Virus record (IMG/VR): IMGVR_UViG_3300025168_000090
Location: 1 to 60,814 of that record
Source of the DNA: a virus
Reading direction: 5' to 3' (one strand)
Length of the DNA: 60,814 nucleotides
Positions 1,953 through 33,909 of this stretch are shown piece by piece; the first letter of the stretch is position 1, and each line of letters begins with the position of its first letter. The position numbers were made by a program, and so were the translations under genes. The notes below the pieces were generated by a model. The model ran no database searches, was not told the origin of the DNA, and saw only the letters and a list, made by a program, of their open reading frames with translations.

Positions 1953-2693
1953 TTACCACTTTCCATTATTTATCCCAGTCAACCTAGTTTTGTCCAATTC
2001 TAAATTATTATCGACAACATCAACCAAATATTCTTTCATAGCTTTATGGTAATCTACATGACTTTTATAAAAAGAGTCGTTACTACTAGCGTGTATATAT
2101 TCTAAATCTTTTAGAACATTAATATAGTTACCTTTTTTCATCCATAAGTAAGCAAATACCGCAACCTCTATGTAATTAACATAGCCTACCCAGTCTTTTG
2201 AGATTTCTAGATATTTTTTACGAGGTACCAAATAATTTCCACCATTAAATAGATGACCTTCTCTAGGGATAGATTTTATATCTTCTTTACCCCATATACG
2301 AGGTGTAAATTCCCACCTATTACCATTAACTATACTACAACATGGATTATATATTGTATTTTCTTTTAATTCGGTATTTTTTAAAAGTTCTATATATCTT
2401 CTAGGTAAAAAATTATCTGAATCTAGTAAGATACACCAGTCGTTTGTGGCTTTTTCTAAAGCTAAATGTTTATTGTGGAAAGCACCCACGTTTTTTTCGT
2501 TTCTATATAACTTAACATTTGGGTATTGTTTACACCACTCAGTTAATACATCATGTACATTTTTACCATCGTATAATTCAGTAGACGCATCATCATTTAC
2601 AATAATTTCATCTACCATGTCGTGAACTTCTTGTATCGCACTTGCAATACTTTTAAATCTATTATAATTGGTCAGTACTAAAGAAAACTTCAT
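1953..2693 (-). CDS. family 2 glycosyltransferase
   Basis: 246 residues, single GT2 domain. The N-terminal strand KFSLVLTNYNRFKSIASAIQ, the EIIVNDDAST motif near residue 30 and the CILLDSDNFLP motif near residue 88 (the DxD-like metal site) are typical. Length is about that of a bare GT2 catalytic domain, with no membrane segments, so it should be soluble. It lies 29 nt upstream (in transcription order) of the exostosin-like gene and is probably co-transcribed with it. The acceptor may be a phage structural protein, a host glycan or a lipid carrier; the sequence does not decide. Confidence 0.85.
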   Translation of the reverse strand: MKFSLVLTNYNRFKSIASAIQEVHDMVDEIIVNDDASTELYDGKNVHDVLTEWCKQYPNVKLYRNEKNVGAFHNKHLALEKATNDWCILLDSDNFLPRRYIELLKNTELKENTIYNPCCSIVNGNRWEFTPRIWGKEDIKSIPREGHLFNGGNYLVPRKKYLEISKDWVGYVNYIEVAVFAYLWMKKGNYINVLKDLEYIHASSNDSFYKSHVDYHKAMKEYLVDVVDNNLELDKTRLTGINNGKW

Positions 2694-2737
2694 TTATTTT
2701 TATTTTAAGTTTAGTTATTTTCTTTAATAAAGTAAAT

Positions 2738-3529
2738 TTATAAGGGTAATGTTGTTATTATTTTTTGTGTGGTCCTAAATGAGCCAAGCACCGAACAATT
2801 TTCTTCAAACCACCTAACACAGGACCTAGACATCTCCTCCCACTTATACTGGTCTATCCCATCAAGAGAAGACTTTAATTTTTCTGGTGAATCCACAAAT
2901 ATATAGTGAATACCTTCTACTAAAGGGTTAAAGTAGTTTAAATCTACACCAGGAGTTATGATAGGTACAACACCTAAGGCCATAAGCTCAATCTCACGAT
3001 TACATTTAGGGCCGTAACCTGGTAAACACAAACCAAATTTAGACTTTCTTAACAAATCTAAATATTCTTGTTGAGTGTACTTGTAGGGTGTTATTGGGTA
3101 CCCTTGAGAAATAGGCATTTCAAATAAATCTATACTTGTAGACCAGTCTACGGAGGTTCTTTTTTTTAGTTGTACGGGATTTTCCACCTTACCAACAAAA
3201 ATACTACCAATCGTACGTTTGGGATATGATAAATATTCTTTTTTTCTAAACTCCTCTAACACCCTAGGTCTACGAGCCCAAAAAATCCATGGAGAAGCGG
3301 TAGAAAAATTAGGTACGGTATTACCAAATAAACCAAAATTAAAAGTTTCTGGTAAAAAATCTAATATGGGTCGGTCATACAATAAAATATTACCAGGACC
3401 ATCAACCCAAACATTTCTAATATTTGGTGTTGGGATTACCTCACATAGATTATTTTCACCCCACATATCTAATAACTCTCTAAAAGTATCACCACCGTGA
3501 CCGTCATGTATGGGTTTTAATATTTTCAT
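2738..3529 (-). CDS. exostosin-like / GT-B glycosyltransferase
   Basis: 263 residues. The recognisable segment is KFGLCLPGYGPKCNREIELM at about residues 168-187 followed by ALGVVPIITPGVD, which has the same shape as the donor-site block of exostosin-like enzymes: a G-rich loop, an R-E acidic pair and a VPI strand. The N-terminal half has no clear match. Its start overlaps the stop of the 3526-4179 gene by 4 nt (ATGA), so the two are likely translationally coupled. It resembles 1058-1924 in organisation but is not a close copy, so it is probably a different specificity rather than a recent duplication. Confidence 0.6.
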   Translation of the reverse strand: MKILKPIHDGHGGDTFRELLDMWGENNLCEVIPTPNIRNVWVDGPGNILLYDRPILDFLPETFNFGLFGNTVPNFSTASPWIFWARRPRVLEEFRKKEYLSYPKRTIGSIFVGKVENPVQLKKRTSVDWSTSIDLFEMPISQGYPITPYKYTQQEYLDLLRKSKFGLCLPGYGPKCNREIELMALGVVPIITPGVDLNYFNPLVEGIHYIFVDSPEKLKSSLDGIDQYKWEEMSRSCVRWFEENCSVLGSFRTTQKIITTLPL

Positions 3530-4179
3530 AACTTTAATTTTTCCCTAACCAGTTCCAACAAGTTAATCTTATTTTCTAAACCTACTGTCCAGTTAGAATG
3601 GTGAACTAACACACCCTTAGGTATTGTAAAGTCTTGACCATTCCATTGTCTAGCGTTAGTAGAGGCTGCGACAGTAAAATATTGATTTGTGGGTAATTTT
3701 TTTTCTTTTATATTTAAATTAAACTTATGTTGGTTATTTAATAGGTGATTCATAGCGGTTTGGTCGTGGTCAAATTTGGGGGTGGTCTCCAAAACCAACT
3801 CCATAAATTTCTTAACTTGTTTATTTCTTTTAGCTATAAAAAAACCAGCACATCTACAAACTATGTCGTCCTGAAACGCTATATCGTGGTCACCTAACTC
3901 ACTAAGTAAAGACTCTTTAAAGTCACCAAAAAATTGAATATCACAATCTGCAAATACAAAAGGTTCGTCACTAGAATCAAAGTTTTCTAAAATAAATTTA
4001 ATTTTTTCTAACATTGTTTCGTTAAATCCTGTAGAATCATAATCACCAGTTTTAGATAATTGAGTAATTTCTTTTGATTTTAAAATGAATGAGTTTTTAA
4101 GATGTTTATCGTATGATTCTAAAAAATAATTTTCATACATTGATTTGTGTGAGTCTGAGTAAAAAGTTAGTAAATCCAT
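3526..4179 (-). CDS. nucleotide-diphospho-sugar transferase-like protein
   Basis: 217 residues. EPFVFADCDIQFFGDF at about residues 77-92 has the DxD motif in the setting found in nucleotide-diphospho-sugar transferases (GT77 and similar). The block FFIAKRNKQVKKFMELVLET followed by KFDHDQTAMNHLL (about residues 112-147) carries the conserved D-Q pair of that family, and GVLVHHSNW near 190 supplies the late histidine. This is a complete, soluble GT-A type transferase. It is tightly packed in the minus-strand glycan island (4-nt overlap downstream, 3-nt gap upstream). Sugar and target are unknown. Confidence 0.7.
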   Translation of the reverse strand: MDLLTFYSDSHKSMYENYFLESYDKHLKNSFILKSKEITQLSKTGDYDSTGFNETMLEKIKFILENFDSSDEPFVFADCDIQFFGDFKESLLSELGDHDIAFQDDIVCRCAGFFIAKRNKQVKKFMELVLETTPKFDHDQTAMNHLLNNQHKFNLNIKEKKLPTNQYFTVAASTNARQWNGQDFTIPKGVLVHHSNWTVGLENKINLLELVREKLKL

Positions 4180-4182
4180 AGT

Positions 4183-5037
4183 CTATAATTTAAAAAGTGA
4201 CTTTATATAATGACGGAGTCTATTCTGTGGACTCCAATCCAAACGTTCTATAGTGTCGTTATTTTCTCTTAAAGTCTCTCTGTAATTACCTTCTTGGTTT
4301 GGTAAGTACTCACACTCAACCCCTGTATATTCCTTAAACATTTCGTAAACTTCATTTAATGAATAATTAATACCAGTACCTAACTCCCAAGCATCCTCAT
4401 GAAAACCATTATAATTATTTATTTTTATTAACCCATCCGCTATGTCGTCCACGTGAGTAAAATCCCGTCTTTGTTCACCATCACCAACAATAGTAATAGG
4501 TTCACTATCTCTAATTTGTCTTCTCCATATCCCTATAACAGCCGCCCACTTACCATCTACAATTTCGTTAGGACCATAAACATTATAAAACCTAGCTATA
4601 TCTACATTTAAACCATATGTTCTTCTGTACATTTTACAAACTTCTTCACCTAAATGTTTATACATAGCGTATGGTGATTGGTATGGGTCGTGCCATTTTG
4701 ATGACGACCCAGCATATATTACTTTTATTTTATTTAGTCTTGCCCACTCACAAACAGATTCTGTACCTTTTAGATTAACCCTAAAAGTTTCTGTAGGGTC
4801 ATCAAAAGAAGGTTGTATTCTACTAAGACCAGCCAGATGAAAACAAACATCAAAATCACCACCGACTTTAGATATGTCTACCACATCCATTTTATGGTAA
4901 GTACACCCCATAACCTCATTTAACTTTGTGCCGGTAGAATAATCATCTAAACAACTAACTTGATGACCATAAGAAATTAATTTTTTAATTAGGTTAACAC
5001 CAACAAAACCCACACCTCCTGTTACTAATATTTTCAT
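4183..5037 (-). CDS. NAD-dependent sugar-nucleotide epimerase/dehydratase (extended SDR)
   Basis: 284 residues. N-terminal MKILVTGGVGFVGVNLIKKL contains the GxxGxxG dinucleotide loop. CFHLAGLSRIQPSF is the strand 4 region, YAGSSS supplies the active-site serine region, and SPYAMYKHLGE near residue 143 supplies the catalytic YxxxK. DGEQRRDFTHVDDIADG near residue 205 is typical of UDP-glucose 4-epimerase-like and dTDP-sugar enzymes. It probably makes a modified nucleotide sugar used by the neighbouring transferases, together with gmd and the UGD-like enzyme. Precise reaction (4-epimerase, reductase or dehydratase) is not resolved. It is slightly short of the usual 310-340 residues. Confidence 0.85.
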   Translation of the reverse strand: MKILVTGGVGFVGVNLIKKLISYGHQVSCLDDYSTGTKLNEVMGCTYHKMDVVDISKVGGDFDVCFHLAGLSRIQPSFDDPTETFRVNLKGTESVCEWARLNKIKVIYAGSSSKWHDPYQSPYAMYKHLGEEVCKMYRRTYGLNVDIARFYNVYGPNEIVDGKWAAVIGIWRRQIRDSEPITIVGDGEQRRDFTHVDDIADGLIKINNYNGFHEDAWELGTGINYSLNEVYEMFKEYTGVECEYLPNQEGNYRETLRENNDTIERLDWSPQNRLRHYIKSLFKL

Positions 5038-5058
5038 TTTATTATAATTTATAATTTA

Positions 5059-5697
5059 TTAAGGATAAACATAAAAATAAGGTGGTGGAACCACCTCTTT
5101 ATTCTCATCATGTTCTTTAGTACCAACAAAAGTTTCAGTATAATTTCTTTTTTTGGTTTCATGGACATGTATAGATTGTATTAAATCACAATCATTAGTT
5201 AAATCATAACCAGAGTTTTTAAATTCCCACGCTATCCTATTATCACACCCTAACTTACCCAGATAAAAATCAGTATTATCTAAGTTACCCATCTTACCCA
5301 ACCAAATCCAACTATCTTGACAGTCTCCACGTCTTGTTTGTATAAAGGGTTTCCCACCGTTATATTCCCATCTCAATAATGTAACAACCTTATTTGTTAA
5401 TTTTAAATTGTTTAAATTACTTAAAGTTTCGTTAAAAAATATATCAGTATTCGTCAATATATTAACATCGTTTTCTTCTGTTACATTATTTATTGACTCG
5501 AAAAAATCTTTAAATTTAGGTCTAGAAAACTTTATTTCTTTTATTTTAGAATTCTCTAACGGTAAAGAGTCCGTTTCATTAAGAATTAAAATCTCTTCTA
5601 TTAAAGGGTTGTTAACATTTTGTTCAATACAGAACTCCAGTTCTTTCTGCCTTTTTGGGTCGGAGTCTATATAGTAAGAAGTAATTAATCTAATCAT
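5059..5697 (-). CDS. putative glycosyltransferase, phage-type GT-A-like
   Basis: 212 residues. MIRLITSYYIDSDPKRQKEL opens the protein, then VNILTNTDIFFNETLS near residue 78 places a D-I-F in the position of a GT-A metal motif. QDSWIWLGK near 126 and DNRIAWEFKNSGYDL near 151 look like the acceptor side of a small transferase, and a late SIHVHET segment adds conserved histidines. I do not recognise a named family, and the assignment rests on this motif order plus location among eight other sugar genes. It has no signal peptide or membrane helix. Spacing to neighbours is 21 nt downstream and 2 nt upstream. Confidence 0.5.
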   Translation of the reverse strand: MIRLITSYYIDSDPKRQKELEFCIEQNVNNPLIEEILILNETDSLPLENSKIKEIKFSRPKFKDFFESINNVTEENDVNILTNTDIFFNETLSNLNNLKLTNKVVTLLRWEYNGGKPFIQTRRGDCQDSWIWLGKMGNLDNTDFYLGKLGCDNRIAWEFKNSGYDLTNDCDLIQSIHVHETKKRNYTETFVGTKEHDENKEVVPPPYFYVYP

Positions 5698-5699
5698 AT

Positions 5700-7133
5700 T
5701 TATGTGAAAATATTAAAACCAGAATTATTATTTTTAAGGGGTTGGTATGTTGGTGTCTCTTTAAGTAAATTATTTTTAACTAGTATTTTTTTGTGTAGCT
5801 CCTCCATATTTTGATTTGCTATGGTAGATACCGTACCTTCTTTTTCATGATGAAAGTAAACAAATAATGGCTTAGGTATTCTTTTACCGACATAACCTTT
5901 TTGCATCATCCTTAACCAAAAGTCATAATCCTCCCAACCCTTTAAAGATTCATCAAAACCACCGATAGAATCAAAAGATTCTCTACTAAACATAGAGCAA
6001 TTTACAATAAAAGGACCTTGTACAAGTCTTTCTTTAGACCATTCAGGTCTTTTTTCCATACCTTTCATTTCACCCTCATGAATAGTATCACAATAAACAG
6101 GACTAATGTTTTTATCTCTAAGTATGGTCTTTACACATTCCTCCACATAAGTAGGTAACATTATATCGTCAGAATCCAGAGGTAATATGTAATCACCAGT
6201 AGAAATCTTTATACCTTCATTTCTTGCGTTAGAAGGACCACCATTTTTTTGTCTAATTACTTTGGTATTAGGTATGTCTAGATTATCCAGTTTCAATTTC
6301 GTAAATGGGTCAGTAGAACCATCATCGATAACAATAATTTCTAAATTTTGGTATGTTTGGTCAAACACAGATGTTAGTGCTGTGTCTAAAGTTTTACCGT
6401 AGTTATAAACCGGTATAATTATTGAAATTAAGGGTTTGTTCTTTTTAAATTTTAATTCTTTAAATTTTATACTTTCTAAAAGTGGTAAAGAATCAGTATA
6501 TCTTTCACTAAAATTAATTCTATTTTGTTCCCACTCCTCATTAGTTTGACCAATAGATAAGTGAGTAATATCAATATTAGATATTACACCAATTTTAACA
6601 CCCTCTAAGTAATTTTGTACACAAAAAGCTAGGTCATAAAAGTGAAATCCTAGAACTGTTTCATCGAAAGACTTCTTAATTTTATTTTTATCTATAGCAA
6701 AAAATAAACCATCCACTAAAACAGCTGGTAATATATCAGACCCAAACTTTCTATTGTATGTTGATAACCATCGTTTACCTTCATTTTCGTGATATACCTG
6801 ACCCATCATTTCTGGTGGAAGTTCCCACCATTTAGCCGAACTAGGTAAATACCTACAACCAGCAACACCAATTATACCAAAGTCACTTCTACTAAAATGA
6901 TTTAAAAGTTTTCTTCCCCAGTTCTTGGTATCAAACTTAATATCGTCATGACAAAATAAAACAATATCGTTAGTTGCGTCTTTAAGACCTTTATTATAAA
7001 CTTCAGTTAAAGAGTATTCACCATTATTTTCGTAAGGTAATATTTGTATTTTATATACACCAGAAGTTTTTTCTATTGTAGATATAAAATCTTTATTTAT
7101 TTTTTTGGTACTAATTACTACTGATAATGACAT
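5700..7133 (-). CDS. two-domain family 2 glycosyltransferase
   Basis: 477 residues with two consecutive GT2-type domains. The N-terminal domain (about 1-225) begins MSLSVVISTKKINKDF and has IVLFCHDDIKFDTKNW, the metal-binding acidic cluster. The C-terminal domain (about 232-450) is a canonical GT2 with SIIIPVYNYGKTLDTALTS, EIIVIDDGSTD and YILPLDSDDIM, then GWEDYDFWLRM as the acceptor-side ED motif. A bifunctional enzyme could add two sugars in turn, as in polymerising synthases. Its start overlaps the stop of the UGD-like gene by one base (TAATG). This is the largest enzyme of the glycan island. Confidence 0.85.
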   Translation of the reverse strand: MSLSVVISTKKINKDFISTIEKTSGVYKIQILPYENNGEYSLTEVYNKGLKDATNDIVLFCHDDIKFDTKNWGRKLLNHFSRSDFGIIGVAGCRYLPSSAKWWELPPEMMGQVYHENEGKRWLSTYNRKFGSDILPAVLVDGLFFAIDKNKIKKSFDETVLGFHFYDLAFCVQNYLEGVKIGVISNIDITHLSIGQTNEEWEQNRINFSERYTDSLPLLESIKFKELKFKKNKPLISIIIPVYNYGKTLDTALTSVFDQTYQNLEIIVIDDGSTDPFTKLKLDNLDIPNTKVIRQKNGGPSNARNEGIKISTGDYILPLDSDDIMLPTYVEECVKTILRDKNISPVYCDTIHEGEMKGMEKRPEWSKERLVQGPFIVNCSMFSRESFDSIGGFDESLKGWEDYDFWLRMMQKGYVGKRIPKPLFVYFHHEKEGTVSTIANQNMEELHKKILVKNNLLKETPTYQPLKNNNSGFNIFT

Positions 7134-8008
7134 TATTTTTTATTTTGATTAATTATTGCTCTACCTTCCATATGTTCCCAGTCACGATTATTTCTAACAC
7201 TATTATTCTTTTTGTCGGTCGCTTGGAGCATTATAGGTGTTACGTCAGAATCCAAGCCCATAGCCACCTTTATTAAAGCTTTAACATCTTTAGGGAAACA
7301 ATGACCACCATACCCAAAGTCCCCATCAGGTCCCGGTACATCCCAATGTGAATACCCTAACCTTTCATCATGTTTTGCGTACTCAATTACCTTATCATAA
7401 TCAATATTTAAATGTTTACATATTTCGTACATTTCATTCGCAAATGATACTTTAGTCGCAAGAAATGAATTCGTAACATATTTTACCATTTCCGCATAAC
7501 TAGAGTCGGTTTTTATTATTTTAACTTTTGGAAAAGCTTTAGAAAAAATTGGTTTTACTAAAGCTGTTATATTATTATCCCCACCTAAAATAGTCCTACT
7601 TTGGTTTTTGTAATCTTCTATTGCGTTAGCTTCAGTTAAAAACTCTGGGTTAAAAACAAATTTAATTTGTGGGTAGTTTTTTTGAAGTTTTTTTGTGGTA
7701 CCAGGTGGTACGGTTGACTTTATCACAACAATACGTTGTTCGTTACCATAATAATCCTTTTCAATACAAATAGGTGATATCTGAGATAATACTGATTCTA
7801 TAATCCCTATATGACACGTACCGTCACGTTCCATAGGTGTTGGTAGACATAGAAATATTATTTTACATCTTTCTACCACCTCATCTAAACTATTACTACA
7901 TTTACCGTTTTTATCGTGAGTTAGTACGGTAAAAAAATTTTGTAGACCTTCTTTTACTGCTGTACCCACAAAACCCTGACCTATAATACCTATTTTTTCT
8001 ATTTTCAT
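7133..8008 (-). CDS. UDP-glucose/GDP-mannose dehydrogenase-like protein, short form
   Basis: 291 residues. KIGIIGQGFVGTAVKEGL is the NAD-binding loop, VVIKSTVPPGTTKKLQ and FNPEFLTEANAIEDY are the family signatures, and GYGGHCFPKDVKAL near residue 228 carries the catalytic cysteine. The enzyme oxidises C6 of a nucleotide hexose to a uronic acid. Bacterial members run to 400-450 residues because of a C-terminal UDP-binding domain. This protein stops about 35 residues after the dimerisation helix and lacks that domain. The stop is followed directly by the next gene, so this looks like a genuine short form rather than a frameshift. Confidence 0.85.
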   Translation of the reverse strand: MKIEKIGIIGQGFVGTAVKEGLQNFFTVLTHDKNGKCSNSLDEVVERCKIIFLCLPTPMERDGTCHIGIIESVLSQISPICIEKDYYGNEQRIVVIKSTVPPGTTKKLQKNYPQIKFVFNPEFLTEANAIEDYKNQSRTILGGDNNITALVKPIFSKAFPKVKIIKTDSSYAEMVKYVTNSFLATKVSFANEMYEICKHLNIDYDKVIEYAKHDERLGYSHWDVPGPDGDFGYGGHCFPKDVKALIKVAMGLDSDVTPIMLQATDKKNNSVRNNRDWEHMEGRAIINQNKK

Positions 8009-16232: not shown

Positions 16233-16240
16233 TATTTATA
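16233..16240 (+). promoter_or_regulatory. TATTTATA promoter motif upstream of 16255 gene
   Basis: TATTTATA followed by ATAAAA, 14 nt before the ATG, in the 34-nt gap after the large virion gene. An AGGA lies 4 nt before the ATG. Confidence 0.5.
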
Positions 16241-30623: not shown

Positions 30624-31097
30624 TTGAAAAATATATTTAACTTAAACGAAGAAGAAAAGAATATAATAAGAGGCTTGCATAATATTAATGAACAAGAGCT
30701 TCCCTTCCCAGACCCCACTTCTAAAGTATCTATATCCACTCAAATTGAAGAGACAAGTAAAGATGAACTACTAGAAAATATGTTAGTACAATCCCAAAGA
30801 TTAACAAGATATATAGAGGGTTCAAAAAGCGGAAGAGGTAATTGGTCAGTTGAAGACTTAAAAAGTATACAAACATCTTTGAATGAGAATATAGGAGAGT
30901 TACTAACTTTTTTAGAATCTAAAACAAGAAAATTTCCAGATAAAGTTAATGAATCGAAACAGTCACTTAATGAATCAGGAGATAGAATAACCCAAAGTTC
31001 GATGGAAAGATATATGGACAAGAAATTTCAAGATGTATTCAATATGATTTCAAAGTATAGTTCTAAGACTACTGGTGGAGGTATGAATGTAAAATAA
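30624..31097 (+). CDS. helical assembly protein with TTG start
   Basis: 157 residues counted from a TTG start at 30624 (no ATG upstream in frame after the previous stop 3 nt earlier). N-terminal KNIFNLNEEEKNIIRGLHNI has an L-N-E site like the neighbours. The rest is helical and charged. It closes a three-gene group following the sheath gene, and its transcript ends at the hairpin at 31122-31146. Family not recognised. Confidence 0.6.
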   Translation: MKNIFNLNEEEKNIIRGLHNINEQELPFPDPTSKVSISTQIEETSKDELLENMLVQSQRLTRYIEGSKSGRGNWSVEDLKSIQTSLNENIGELLTFLESKTRKFPDKVNESKQSLNESGDRITQSSMERYMDKKFQDVFNMISKYSSKTTGGGMNVK

Positions 31098-31121
31098 TTA
31101 TTATTTATAGATATATAATTT

Positions 31122-31146
31122 AAGGTCCTTTTATAGGACCTTTTTT
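31122..31146. terminator. bidirectional hairpin terminator between convergent units
   Basis: AAGGTCCT, 5-nt loop, AGGACCTT then TTTTATT on plus. It ends plus-strand transcription from the 29299-31097 group and, overlapping the stop of the minus-strand gene at 31145, ends the secreted-protein cassette as well. Same stem sequence as the terminator at 21600. Confidence 0.8.
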
Positions 31147-31381
31147 ATTCTACTAATTTACCCCCATTTAACAATATTAAAATTAATATCATTGGTGCTA
31201 ATAAGGGAGCTTTGATAATGTGTGAGATAATATAAAGTACAAACCATTTAGTACTTGGGTTATCACCACGTCTAGACTCAAATGATAAATAACCATCTCG
31301 TATATTATCTTCATTTATTATTAAGAAAATAAACATTAGTATTTGTGAAACTATAAGATAAGATAAGATATATTCTAACAT
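31145..31381 (-). CDS. small two-helix membrane protein
   Basis: 78 residues. Two hydrophobic stretches: residues 3-20 (EYILSYLIVSQILMFIFL) and about 47-71 (FVLYIISHIIKAPLLAPMIL), separated by a charged loop (NEDNIRDGYLSFESRRG). It lies at the distal end of the reverse-strand cassette with its own host-type promoter at 31434-31464. Likely an inner-membrane protein made from host RNA polymerase. An exclusion or envelope-modifying role is inference. Family unrecognised. Confidence 0.65.
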   Translation of the reverse strand: MLEYILSYLIVSQILMFIFLIINEDNIRDGYLSFESRRGDNPSTKWFVLYIISHIIKAPLLAPMILILILLNGGKLVE

Positions 31382-31433
31382 AATTTTTTTTTTAAAGGTT
31401 AAACATCTATTAATATATACGAGTTTTATACTA

Positions 31434-31464
31434 CAAAGTTACAATAATTAATTGACATATCCAA
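31434..31464 (-). promoter_or_regulatory. Bacteroidota-type promoter for the membrane-protein gene
   Basis: On the minus strand, TTG (complement of 31462-31464), 20 nt, then TAACTTTG (31434-31441), an exact TAnnTTTG -7 box. The start codon at 31381 is 52 nt downstream. TAACTTTG is followed by TAGTAT, also seen after the -7 box of the lipoprotein promoter. Confidence 0.7.
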
Positions 31465-31867
31465 GAATTCCTCGATAAATTCCATATTCCATCTCCACAC
31501 CAAACACCACAGTCATACCATTAAAGTACAAAAAAGAGTAAGAACCGTCAAACCCACCCAACTTATATACTTGGCCATACTCAGTACTAACTAAGTCCAA
31601 GATTATATATTCATTACTGTATTCATCATAACTTAATAACTCTACCCTGGTAACATTAACCTGATTATTAATAGTGTCTATCACAATTGTGTGGGTATAC
31701 TCATCACCCCAAGAAGTAACATTAACAAAATTAGGATTAAAATTTTGATTTAACTGGTTACTGTCTATAGTGTTTATAGTGACGTAATAATTATCGTTTT
31801 TTAAGTTTATTGTCTGAGAGAATAAAGTTAGTGGTAATAGTAGTAATATTAGTAATAGATTTTTCAT
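31448..31867 (-). CDS. secreted protein with flavobacterial-style signal peptide
   Basis: 139 residues. MKNLLLILLLLPLTLFSQ is a signal peptide ending with FSQ, typical of Bacteroidota periplasmic or secreted proteins; the mature part (TINLKNDNYYVTINTID) is strand rich with no recognised domain. Its start overlaps the stop of the lipoprotein gene by 4 nt (ATGA), so the two are co-translated. Together they form a reverse-strand secreted pair between tail genes. Confidence 0.75.
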   Translation of the reverse strand: MKNLLLILLLLPLTLFSQTINLKNDNYYVTINTIDSNQLNQNFNPNFVNVTSWGDEYTHTIVIDTINNQVNVTRVELLSYDEYSNEYIILDLVSTEYGQVYKLGGFDGSYSFLYFNGMTVVFGVEMEYGIYRGILGYVN

Positions 31868-32436
31868 TGTTTTTTAAATTTTAATTTAGTGTAGTAGTAA
31901 GAGTTGTAACCATTTATGTTTTCGTAAGTGTGTTGCACTTCAACAGACACCAACGTATTATGTGGATTAATCATTTTATAATGTATCGGTCTAGACGAGC
32001 CACCAATTTGTTGTGGGCCAACCATATTCTCCAATACAGTTATATTGTTGGTGGTGACATTTAAACCATATGGGGTAATACTATCACCATCTAATATAAA
32101 TAAACCTATGCCTGGGGTGTTTTCGGGGTAGTTAAATGACCAAGTAGTCTCATTCAATACAATATCTTCAAATTCGTAATAAGAACCCCCATAACGTAAA
32201 CTGTTTGTGTTTGTATAACTGAAAAGAAATAAACTATCTGTTAGGTTAAAATCTAAATTAGTTACATACATTACAGCGTCTTTAAGTACCCACACCCCCT
32301 CCAATTCACCTAAAGTTATAAATGTAGTTGTATCTTGGGTTGTTGGGTATGTGTTGGTACACTCTATTTGGAAATTTTCTTTTTCACAAGAAGTTAGTGT
32401 TAAAAGTACTATAAATAAGTTTATTAATTTTTTCAT
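31864..32436 (-). CDS. outer-membrane lipoprotein with lipocalin-like fold
   Basis: 190 residues. MKKLINLFIVLLTLTSC ends in a lipobox LTSC (Cys17), followed by EKEN, an acidic-rich stretch like a surface-export signal. Mature residues contain LGELEGVWVLKDAV near 42, the L-x-G-x-W start of lipocalin-like domains common in Bacteroidota. Many T and N strands follow. It is a host-type protein within a phage tail gene block and has its own host-like promoter 4 nt before the start codon. Likely changes the host surface or competes for a receptor (inference). Confidence 0.8.
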   Translation of the reverse strand: MKKLINLFIVLLTLTSCEKENFQIECTNTYPTTQDTTTFITLGELEGVWVLKDAVMYVTNLDFNLTDSLFLFSYTNTNSLRYGGSYYEFEDIVLNETTWSFNYPENTPGIGLFILDGDSITPYGLNVTTNNITVLENMVGPQQIGGSSRPIHYKMINPHNTLVSVEVQHTYENINGYNSYYYTKLKFKKQ

Positions 32437-32440
32437 ACTA

Positions 32441-32472
32441 CAAAGATAAACAAAATAAACGAATAAACAAAA
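32441..32472 (-). promoter_or_regulatory. Bacteroidota-type promoter for the lipoprotein operon
   Basis: On the minus strand, TTTTG (complement of 32468-32472), 19 nt, then TATCTTTG (32441-32448), a perfect TAnnTTTG box. Only 4 nt separate it from the ATG at 32436, so a transcript starting here would be essentially leaderless. Confidence 0.75.
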
Positions 32473-32492: not shown

Positions 32493-33353
32493 ATGAAGAA
32501 CATTATTATAACAAAAGAACAATTTTTAAGTGTTAGTAAAATACTTAAAGAAAATATGACCAACCCAAATACTATGAGAGCTTATTCTTTTGATTGGGAT
32601 GATAATATTATTATGATGCCCACAACTATAAAAATGTTGAAACGGGTTGGTGATGGTTGGGATAATGTAGAGGTGGGCACTGACGAGTTTGCTTCTATAA
32701 GAAATGATGATAACTATAAATTGGATGATGACGCATTTAGTAATTTTATAAATGATGAGTCTTTTATGACAGACTTAGAAAAAGCTTTAACAACAAAATC
32801 TTTTGCCCCATCATTTAATAAGTTTAAAGAAGCTCTTATTTACGGTAACCCAATATCAATTATAACAGCCAGAGGACATAAACCAGAAACCTTAAGAAAG
32901 GGTATGGATTTGGTAATTTCATATACGTTTAGTGAAGATGAATTAGCTGATATGATTGATAACATTCAACAACAAATACCTGAATTAGATGGTGAAAATG
33001 CTGAAACCATAATAAAATCTTACTTAGACAGTCATGATTATCACCCAGTAACATCATCCTCTTTTACTGATAGGTTTGGTTTAGAAAGTGGGTCTGCCGC
33101 TAATCCAGAAGAAAATAAAAAAGTAGCCTTAAGGGACTACGTTACAAAAATAGTAGCTAAAGCTGGTGAAATGGTAAATACCGAATATAATAAATTGTCA
33201 GTTGGGTTTAGTGACGATGACTTAGGCAATATCAATGCTATAGTACCCTTCATCCAAAATGTATTACAATCAGAATTTCCGGAAGTAGATTTTGTGGTGT
33301 ATGATACTTCCGAAGGTGGAATGAATAAAATAATATTAAAACAGGTAAATTAA
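32493..33353 (+). CDS. HAD-superfamily hydrolase-like protein
   Basis: 286 residues. Residues 30-45 contain AYSFDWDDNIIMMPTT, matching HAD motif I (D-x-D then T), and near 123 there is PISIITARGHKP, matching motif II (hh(T/S)). SVGFSDDDLGNI near 238 may be motif IV. HAD enzymes are phosphatases or phosphotransferases. The first 20 residues (NIIITKEQFLSVSKILKENM) carry the TES-L-like peptide found in other proteins here. Substrate not known. It sits between the moron cassette and the tail tube gene. Confidence 0.65.
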   Translation: MKNIIITKEQFLSVSKILKENMTNPNTMRAYSFDWDDNIIMMPTTIKMLKRVGDGWDNVEVGTDEFASIRNDDNYKLDDDAFSNFINDESFMTDLEKALTTKSFAPSFNKFKEALIYGNPISIITARGHKPETLRKGMDLVISYTFSEDELADMIDNIQQQIPELDGENAETIIKSYLDSHDYHPVTSSSFTDRFGLESGSAANPEENKKVALRDYVTKIVAKAGEMVNTEYNKLSVGFSDDDLGNINAIVPFIQNVLQSEFPEVDFVVYDTSEGGMNKIILKQVN

Positions 33354-33420: not shown

Positions 33421-33909
33421 ATGGCTGACTTATTAATGAAAATGCCTATTCCTTATGAACCAAAGAAAAAGAATAGATTTATTCTTAGATTCGACTCTTC
33501 CTTGGGAATTAATGAATGGTACGTAGAAAGTACTTCTAGACCACAGGTAACAATTAACTCTGTAGAAGTACCGTTCCTTAACACCTCTACTTATGTAGCT
33601 GGGAGATTTACATGGAACACAATAAATGTAACATTTAGAGACCCGATAGGACCATCAGCGTCACAAGCTCTTATGGAGTGGGTTAGATTACACGCGGAAT
33701 CAGTAACTGGTAGAATGGGTTATGCTGCGGGGTATAAGAAAAACATAGACTTAGAGATGTTAGACCCTACAGGTGTTGTTGTTGAGAAATGGATAATGCA
33801 AGGAACGTTCCTTACTGATGTTAATTTCGATAGTTTGGGGTATAGTGATGACGGTTTAGCGACAATTTCAGCCACGTTGCGTCCGGATAGATGTATTCTA
33901 GTCTACTAA
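33421..33909 (+). CDS. gp19: tail tube protein (gp19-like)
   Basis: 162 residues, against 163 for T4 gp19. KKKNRFILRFDSSLGINEWY, YVAGRFTWNTINVTFRDPIG and VVEKWIMQGTFLTDVNFDSL follow the order of the T4-type tube protein that forms the inner tail channel. It sits 4.1 kb downstream of the sheath, with the prohead-core-like trio, the moron cassette and the HAD gene in between, instead of next to it as in T4. It is followed by a strong terminator at 33932. Probably highly expressed. Confidence 0.9.
   Translation: MADLLMKMPIPYEPKKKNRFILRFDSSLGINEWYVESTSRPQVTINSVEVPFLNTSTYVAGRFTWNTINVTFRDPIGPSASQALMEWVRLHAESVTGRMGYAAGYKKNIDLEMLDPTGVVVEKWIMQGTFLTDVNFDSLGYSDDGLATISATLRPDRCILVY

Follow-up and report, generated by a model that had tools for sequence, protein, structure and literature searches.

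A large phage that carries, inside its tail module and against the direction of the neighboring genes, a group of genes for apparently exported proteins raises the question of what those proteins do and when they are made. Such a group is found in IMG/VR record IMGVR_UViG_3300025168_000090, of which the whole stretch of 60,814 nucleotides was analysed (hereafter, the window). The features of the locus are given in Table 1.

Three genes for predicted exported proteins

The open reading frames of the window include three minus-strand genes (A, B and C) flanked by plus-strand genes within the tail module; the frames of A and B share 4 nt. A first-pass annotation, made from the letters alone, had placed a lipoprotein, a secreted protein and a two-helix membrane protein between the tail genes, and all three are found where it put them: the lipobox of A continues as LTSC-EKEN, the signal peptide of B ends in FSQ (...LFSQ-TI), and C has two hydrophobic segments (residues ~5-22 and ~55-71). 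The bidirectional terminator that was said to close the cassette is borne out for one direction, a hairpin having been found for the plus strand, whereas the tail on the minus strand (TTAAATT) lends no support to the other. Just past g157 lies a late-type motif (TATTTATA, 31102-31120) that faces the terminator at 31122 and would transcribe almost nothing; it is perhaps the remnant of a lost gene.

Table 1. Features of the reverse-strand cassette and its surroundings, in window coordinates
Feature	Position	Strand	Description
g157	30624-31097	+	flanking 157-aa gene, convergent with the cassette
Terminator	31122-31142 (stem)	+	intrinsic hairpin in the g157/C gap; T-tail on the plus strand only (terminator scan)
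Gene C	31145-31381	-	78-aa two-helix inner-membrane protein (predicted); usual core of the cassette
ECF-type promoter	31416-31442	-	GTAAC-N16-CGTATA, 34 nt before the ATG of C
Second promoter of the first-pass annotation	31434-31464	-	TTG-N20-TAACTTTG; present, not conserved; overlaps the ECF-type -35 box
Gene B	31448-31867	-	139-aa Sec/SPI-secreted protein, Q-rule cleavage before Gln18; predicted lipocalin-like barrel
Gene A	31864-32436	-	190-aa lipoprotein, lipobox LTSC, Cys17; predicted lipocalin-like beta-barrel
Front promoter	32441-32472	-	Bacteroidota sigma-A type, TTTTG-N19-TATCTTTG, 4 nt before the ATG of A
HAD-like gene	32493-33353	+	flanking 286-aa gene, divergent from A; has a TATTTAT motif of late type
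Tail tube gene	33421-33909	+	landmark for finding relatives

The export signals are conserved among homologs. Cys17 is invariant in an alignment of 26 A proteins, with lysine at +3 in 25 of them, followed directly by at most one acidic residue (E; N in some). The optimal surface-export signal of Capnocytophaga is C-X-K-(D/E)2-X (PMC5080379); by this Bacteroidota LES rule, half of the signal is present in A (K at +3, one acidic residue versus two), and surface exposure of A is uncertain. Glutamine directly follows the signal peptide in all 16 B proteins (Gln18) and in several other proteins encoded in the same slot, in agreement with the Q-rule of Bacteroidetes, by which Gln directly follows the site of SPI signal peptide cleavage (PMC5837995). 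This residue also supports a Bacteroidota host, and by several sequence signs the hosts of the clade would be Bacteroidota. C has invariant residues at H54, K57-A-P59, P63, N72 and G74-K75 in the alignment. Thus, a location in the host envelope is predicted for all three products from conserved features (the lipobox of A, the SPI signal and Q-rule residue of B, and the two helices of C), and A, B and C are very probably host-envelope proteins rather than parts of the virion.

Family searches were less informative. No family of Pfam, NCBIfam, PADLOC or PHROG covers the whole of any of the three proteins, and A and B are without a match in isolated phages. One short-peptide pattern scan each over 84,980 genomes, which distant kin can escape, found no host homologs of A and C. 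Among viruses, a scan with a single A sequence found nothing, and the A alignment as query found relatives. A PHROG match of A to "Cor" (E 0.0014) was set aside because it spans residues 1-37 only, mostly signal peptide; a PADLOC match of B to Csx19 (E 0.007) is at chance level; and C matches a single, unrelated PHROG (E 0.31) and not the family of T4 Imm.

The AlphaFold2 models of A (pLDDT 81) and B (pLDDT 82) were compared with known structures by VIA-align. The lists for A are full of lipocalins and other calycins (best Z 7.2) and include two lipocalin-like lipoproteins of Bacteroides (PDB 4i95 and 4gzv, Z about 7, a range reachable by common arrangement alone). The best match of B is Tp0751 of Treponema (5jk2, Z 10.0 over 87 residues), followed by lipocalins and fatty-acid-binding proteins. 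Foldseek alone gave no E below 0.001 for either protein, and in the fold-library lists the absence of other families carries no evidential weight. On these models, A and B are probably small lipocalin-like barrels, a shared fold that shows no function; their sequence identity to 4i95, 4gzv and 5jk2 is only ~6-11%.

Two promoters of different types

The front promoter had been proposed because it matches the Bacteroidota consensus exactly. Matches of this kind occur in the window at chance level (TAnnTTTG, 95 found versus 96 expected; TTTG-N17-22-TAnnTTTG, 4 found versus 4.5 expected), so that an exact match is in itself no evidence, and position and conservation decide. On both counts the promoter stands: all 38 non-redundant loci have a TAHHTTTGTA box before the first gene of the cassette, with ~0.02 expected per region by composition, and the box lies exactly 4 nt from the ATG in 31 of the 38, whether the first gene is A or B. 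Sequence kinship inflates the count of 38, yet the box persists while the gene behind it is exchanged. The sigma-A consensus of Bacteroidota consists of TTTG at -33 and TAHHTTTG at -7, with transcription starting 4-5 nt after the latter box (PMC6847099); the front promoter has both boxes at the right spacing, and with a start 4-5 nt past the box the mRNA of the cassette is expected to be nearly leaderless. The comparison across loci shows a conserved front promoter of sigma-A type, the housekeeping kind, that would drive a nearly leaderless operon with interchangeable exported proteins in its first slots. Boxes of the same type precede other small genes in larger relatives.

The cassette was further said to be read by the host polymerase. 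The promoter is indeed of host type, but the host is not its only candidate reader, as the clade encodes a sigma-A-like factor of its own: a protein of about 266 aa was detected in seven of ten relatives by a strong region-2 match, and the five sequences that were read (L199, L200, L202, L204 and L205; 264-266 aa) contain regions 1.2, 2 and 4. Thus, either a host or a phage sigma factor may read the front promoter, and expression may be under phage control. A second sigma-like protein with a weak region 2, perhaps like T4 gp55, is also encoded in the clade (L206).

A different element is conserved before C. The second promoter of the first-pass annotation is in the sequence, but its TAACTTTG (31434-31441) is common to few relatives, and the TAAC within it belongs to a conserved -35 box of ECF type. 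The continuation of both promoters into CTTTGTAGTAT, also pointed out earlier, does exist in the window; at the second site, however, it is a coincidence almost confined to this sequence. GTAAC-N16/17-CGTATA precedes C in 31 of 35 non-redundant loci, counting one with N18; the 30 loci with N16/17 compare with 0.11% of dinucleotide shuffles. ECF-sigma promoters generally carry AAC at -35 and CGT at -10 (PMC4153023), and a CGT-box motif (SM6) of Flavobacterium psychrophilum has been ascribed to ECF sigmas (PMC9723704). The element before C shares both boxes and the standard spacing (about 16-17) with these promoters; what sets it apart is that it belongs to a phage and stands before the gene of a membrane protein. 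By its sequence, C is shown to follow a second conserved promoter, of ECF-sigma type, a class that commonly serves envelope stress.

Both cassette promoters differ from the late TATTTAT type. CGTATATATTAATA before C was initially read as a variant of the late motif, but its motif model score was unconvincing and the conserved GTAAC partner shows a promoter of another type; the late reading was therefore dropped. Elsewhere in the window, a late-promoter-like motif (TATTTATAATAAA) is found ~20-25 nt before the start codons of about 12 genes on both strands (for example at 16233, 21576, 29277, 33375, 35026 and 52859).

A count of GTAAC-N15-18-CGTAT over ten clade records (1.37 Mb) gives 16 sites: ten precede C, two are inside reading frames, and four precede either genes of exported proteins or an operon that includes an A-like lipoprotein (at one of the four, near a contig end, the gene behind is cut off). 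The genes that the element precedes elsewhere in the clade thus include those of secreted CAP proteins and of an A-like lipoprotein. Each record (49-298 kb) has one to four sites, nearly all before envelope genes, and ECF-type region 4 (PF08281) gave no match over the cut-off in ten clade records, which are fragments. The few sites before envelope genes, together with the lack of a detected ECF sigma, point to a host ECF sigma as the likeliest reader of the element in this clade.

Unrelated jumbo phages provide independent support for the promoter class, since four of them contain 34, 59, 19 and 9 copies of the GTAAC/CGTATA element (none in a reversed-pattern control) and encode ECF-type sigmas. 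In L222, L225, L248 and L219 (G012-G015) the 9-59 copies constitute a strongly clustered, genome-wide promoter, that is, a phage-borne ECF regulon; examples of jumbo-phage ECF sigma genes are L294:1447-2013 and L295:1483-2010. The rule that every such site marks an exported gene, true in the clade, is not general, as the element precedes ordinary genes in other jumbo phages. By analogy, a phage factor that was not recognised here might read GTAAC-N16-CGTATA in the window as well and place C in a private phage regulon, a reading that concerns the promoter only and is compatible with any of the functions considered below. The genome-wide element of the jumbo phages that carry ECF sigmas and the two sigma-like proteins of the window's clade speak for such a regulon, but one of those proteins is sigma-A-like, the other has a weak region 2 and neither is of ECF type, and so small a number of sites per record, nearly all at envelope genes, does not fit it well. 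We consider it somewhat unlikely and retain a host ECF sigma as the preferred reader.

An old cassette with changing contents

The tail tube protein, used as a query, retrieved at least 598 relatives from IMG/VR, and 80 loci were retained; the comparison set consisted of about 70 IMG/VR relatives, which are incomplete contigs. C was detected in 53 loci and A in 18 (several contigs being common to both searches). The cassette is located in the same place, on the reverse strand, in about 50 contigs that span deep divergence, but its contents vary: A+C, A+B+C, B+C, C alone, A+B, A alone, or A with another secreted protein. C is absent from some relatives (e.g. L003, L137 and L146), and in the more distant L050 and its relatives it is accompanied by a secreted protein of 335 aa. 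Secreted proteins with a CAP domain are encoded in or beside the slot in L120 and L089.

Gains and losses were counted on a tree made from the 286-aa protein and the tail tube in 40 distinct rows (a quick method, which left three long branches and some open forks); the minimum number of changes is four for A, eight for B and five for C. Identity among relatives is 45-53% for A and 22-32% for B, versus mostly 85-98% for the neighboring tail tube. To judge from these contigs, the cassette is an old, fixed resident of the clade in which single genes turn over around C, the usual core, though C is missing in some lineages. The cassette had been said to look like a moron, which might come and go between related phages as a three-gene unit. 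It does have promoters of its own, of sigma-A type and ECF type, on the strand opposite to the late genes, but its constant place and the turnover of individual genes do not agree with a recent arrival that moves as a unit. The alternative suggestion of a surface-conversion unit loses ground because no integrase was found among ten relatives, which makes lysogenic surface conversion less likely.

Several other genes of the clade and the window may be mentioned. The 335-aa slot protein (L050:6144-7151 and relatives) has a weak match to the SprB repeat; its C-terminal tail resembles a type IX secretion (T9SS) sorting signal by eye, but matches no NCBIfam or Pfam model and is not claimed as one. 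Larger relatives (L171, L180, L195, L217, L232 and L236) encode secreted CAP-domain or CAP-like proteins, some in tandem, behind promoters of sigma-A or ECF type. On the minus strand of the window, 1953-8008 contains sugar-modification genes, with matches to GtrB-like/glycosyltransferase, nucleotide-sugar epimerase and UDP-glucose dehydrogenase.

Possible functions of the cassette

Superinfection exclusion, which the first-pass annotation had raised as a possibility, is the likeliest of the functions considered, with about an even chance of being the main one. In Pfam, NCBIfam, PADLOC and PHROG, no known exclusion protein is homologous to A, B or C over its whole length, and the comparison is by analogy. 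T4 Imm (83 aa; PHROG 1039, PMC9409062) is near C in size and keeps a second phage's DNA from entering; the same action is proposed for C, whose clade looks virulent. C differs in having no detectable sequence relation to Imm, in its place in the tail module, and in its ECF-type promoter and exported partners. SieA of P22 (PMC10883804) has 162-164 aa and three helices and is expressed from a prophage, whereas C has 78 aa and two helices and belongs to a clade with no detected integrase. Ltp of TP-J34 (PMC3952083) and, as cited in PMC9409062, Llp of T5 (77 aa) are, like A, phage-encoded lipoproteins anchored in the host envelope, but Ltp belongs to a prophage of a Gram-positive host and is produced in that state, and A, at 190 aa, is lipocalin-like by prediction, with signals of Bacteroidota type and no sequence relation found to either.

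If exclusion is the function, the products of the cassette would remodel the envelope of the infected cell. A and B would be made early in infection by the RNA polymerase of the host, perhaps aided by the sigma-A-like factor of the phage. These would pass to the outer membrane or cell surface and to the periplasm, where the barrels might bind the incoming tail, a receptor or some component of the envelope, and C in the inner membrane would keep out the DNA of a second phage in the manner of T4 Imm or P22 SieA. A host sigma factor for envelope stress or envelope signalling might raise the level of C through the ECF-type promoter when the envelope is disturbed, for example by the tail of another phage, and through linkage to the tail genes, exclusion would stay matched to the phage's own machinery for entry.

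The same export signals and promoters also speak for a general cassette for the host envelope or for host takeover, without exclusion, in which the products might scavenge ligands, inhibit host surface enzymes, alter the cell surface or guard the cell against stress or premature lysis, with C stabilising the inner membrane. Control of ECF type suits envelope maintenance, and the diversity of the slot proteins (lipocalin-like, CAP-domain and 335-aa secreted) is broader than that of known exclusion proteins; by itself, however, such a role leaves the fixed place in the tail module and the rapid turnover of A and B unexplained. We regard it as a tentative alternative of appreciable weight. It is improbable that the genes form a lysis cassette, in which A would be an outer-membrane component such as a spanin and C a holin or antiholin, small and with two helices. 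C has two helices and the size of a class II holin and shares an operon with a lipoprotein, but no endolysin was recognised adjoining C in any locus whose gene order was compared, and the conservation of C is high, with invariant residues of polar type (H54, K57, N72 and K75) in or near its second helix, which are unusual for holins. Moreover, A is a predicted lipocalin-like beta protein of 190 aa, not a short coiled-coil or proline-rich o-spanin, and the promoters are not of the late TATTTAT type. Less probable still is that virion or tail-assembly genes have merely been inverted: throughout the clade the cassette keeps its place beside the tail tube and sheath genes, which would suit such genes, but tails are assembled in the cytoplasm, out of which A and B would be carried by their conserved signal peptides, and the genes are on the opposite strand with their own promoters, A or B often being absent.

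The surprise of the cassette is the ECF-type promoter that precedes C. A limited literature search yielded no description of an envelope-stress-linked phage cassette or of a multi-copy ECF-type promoter in jumbo phages. That virulent phages of Bacteroidota have wired host ECF sigmas to inner-membrane and other exported proteins, so that the host's response to envelope stress or envelope signals, for example under attack by a second phage, turns on the exclusion protein of the resident phage and the host's own alarm serves as an inducible superinfection-exclusion sensor, is offered as a speculation that is unlikely to hold. If true, it would mean that a cassette of phage envelope proteins is tied to the bacterial envelope-stress network, and it would provide a first handle on how superinfection is controlled in this clade of large phages of Bacteroidota, which is widespread.
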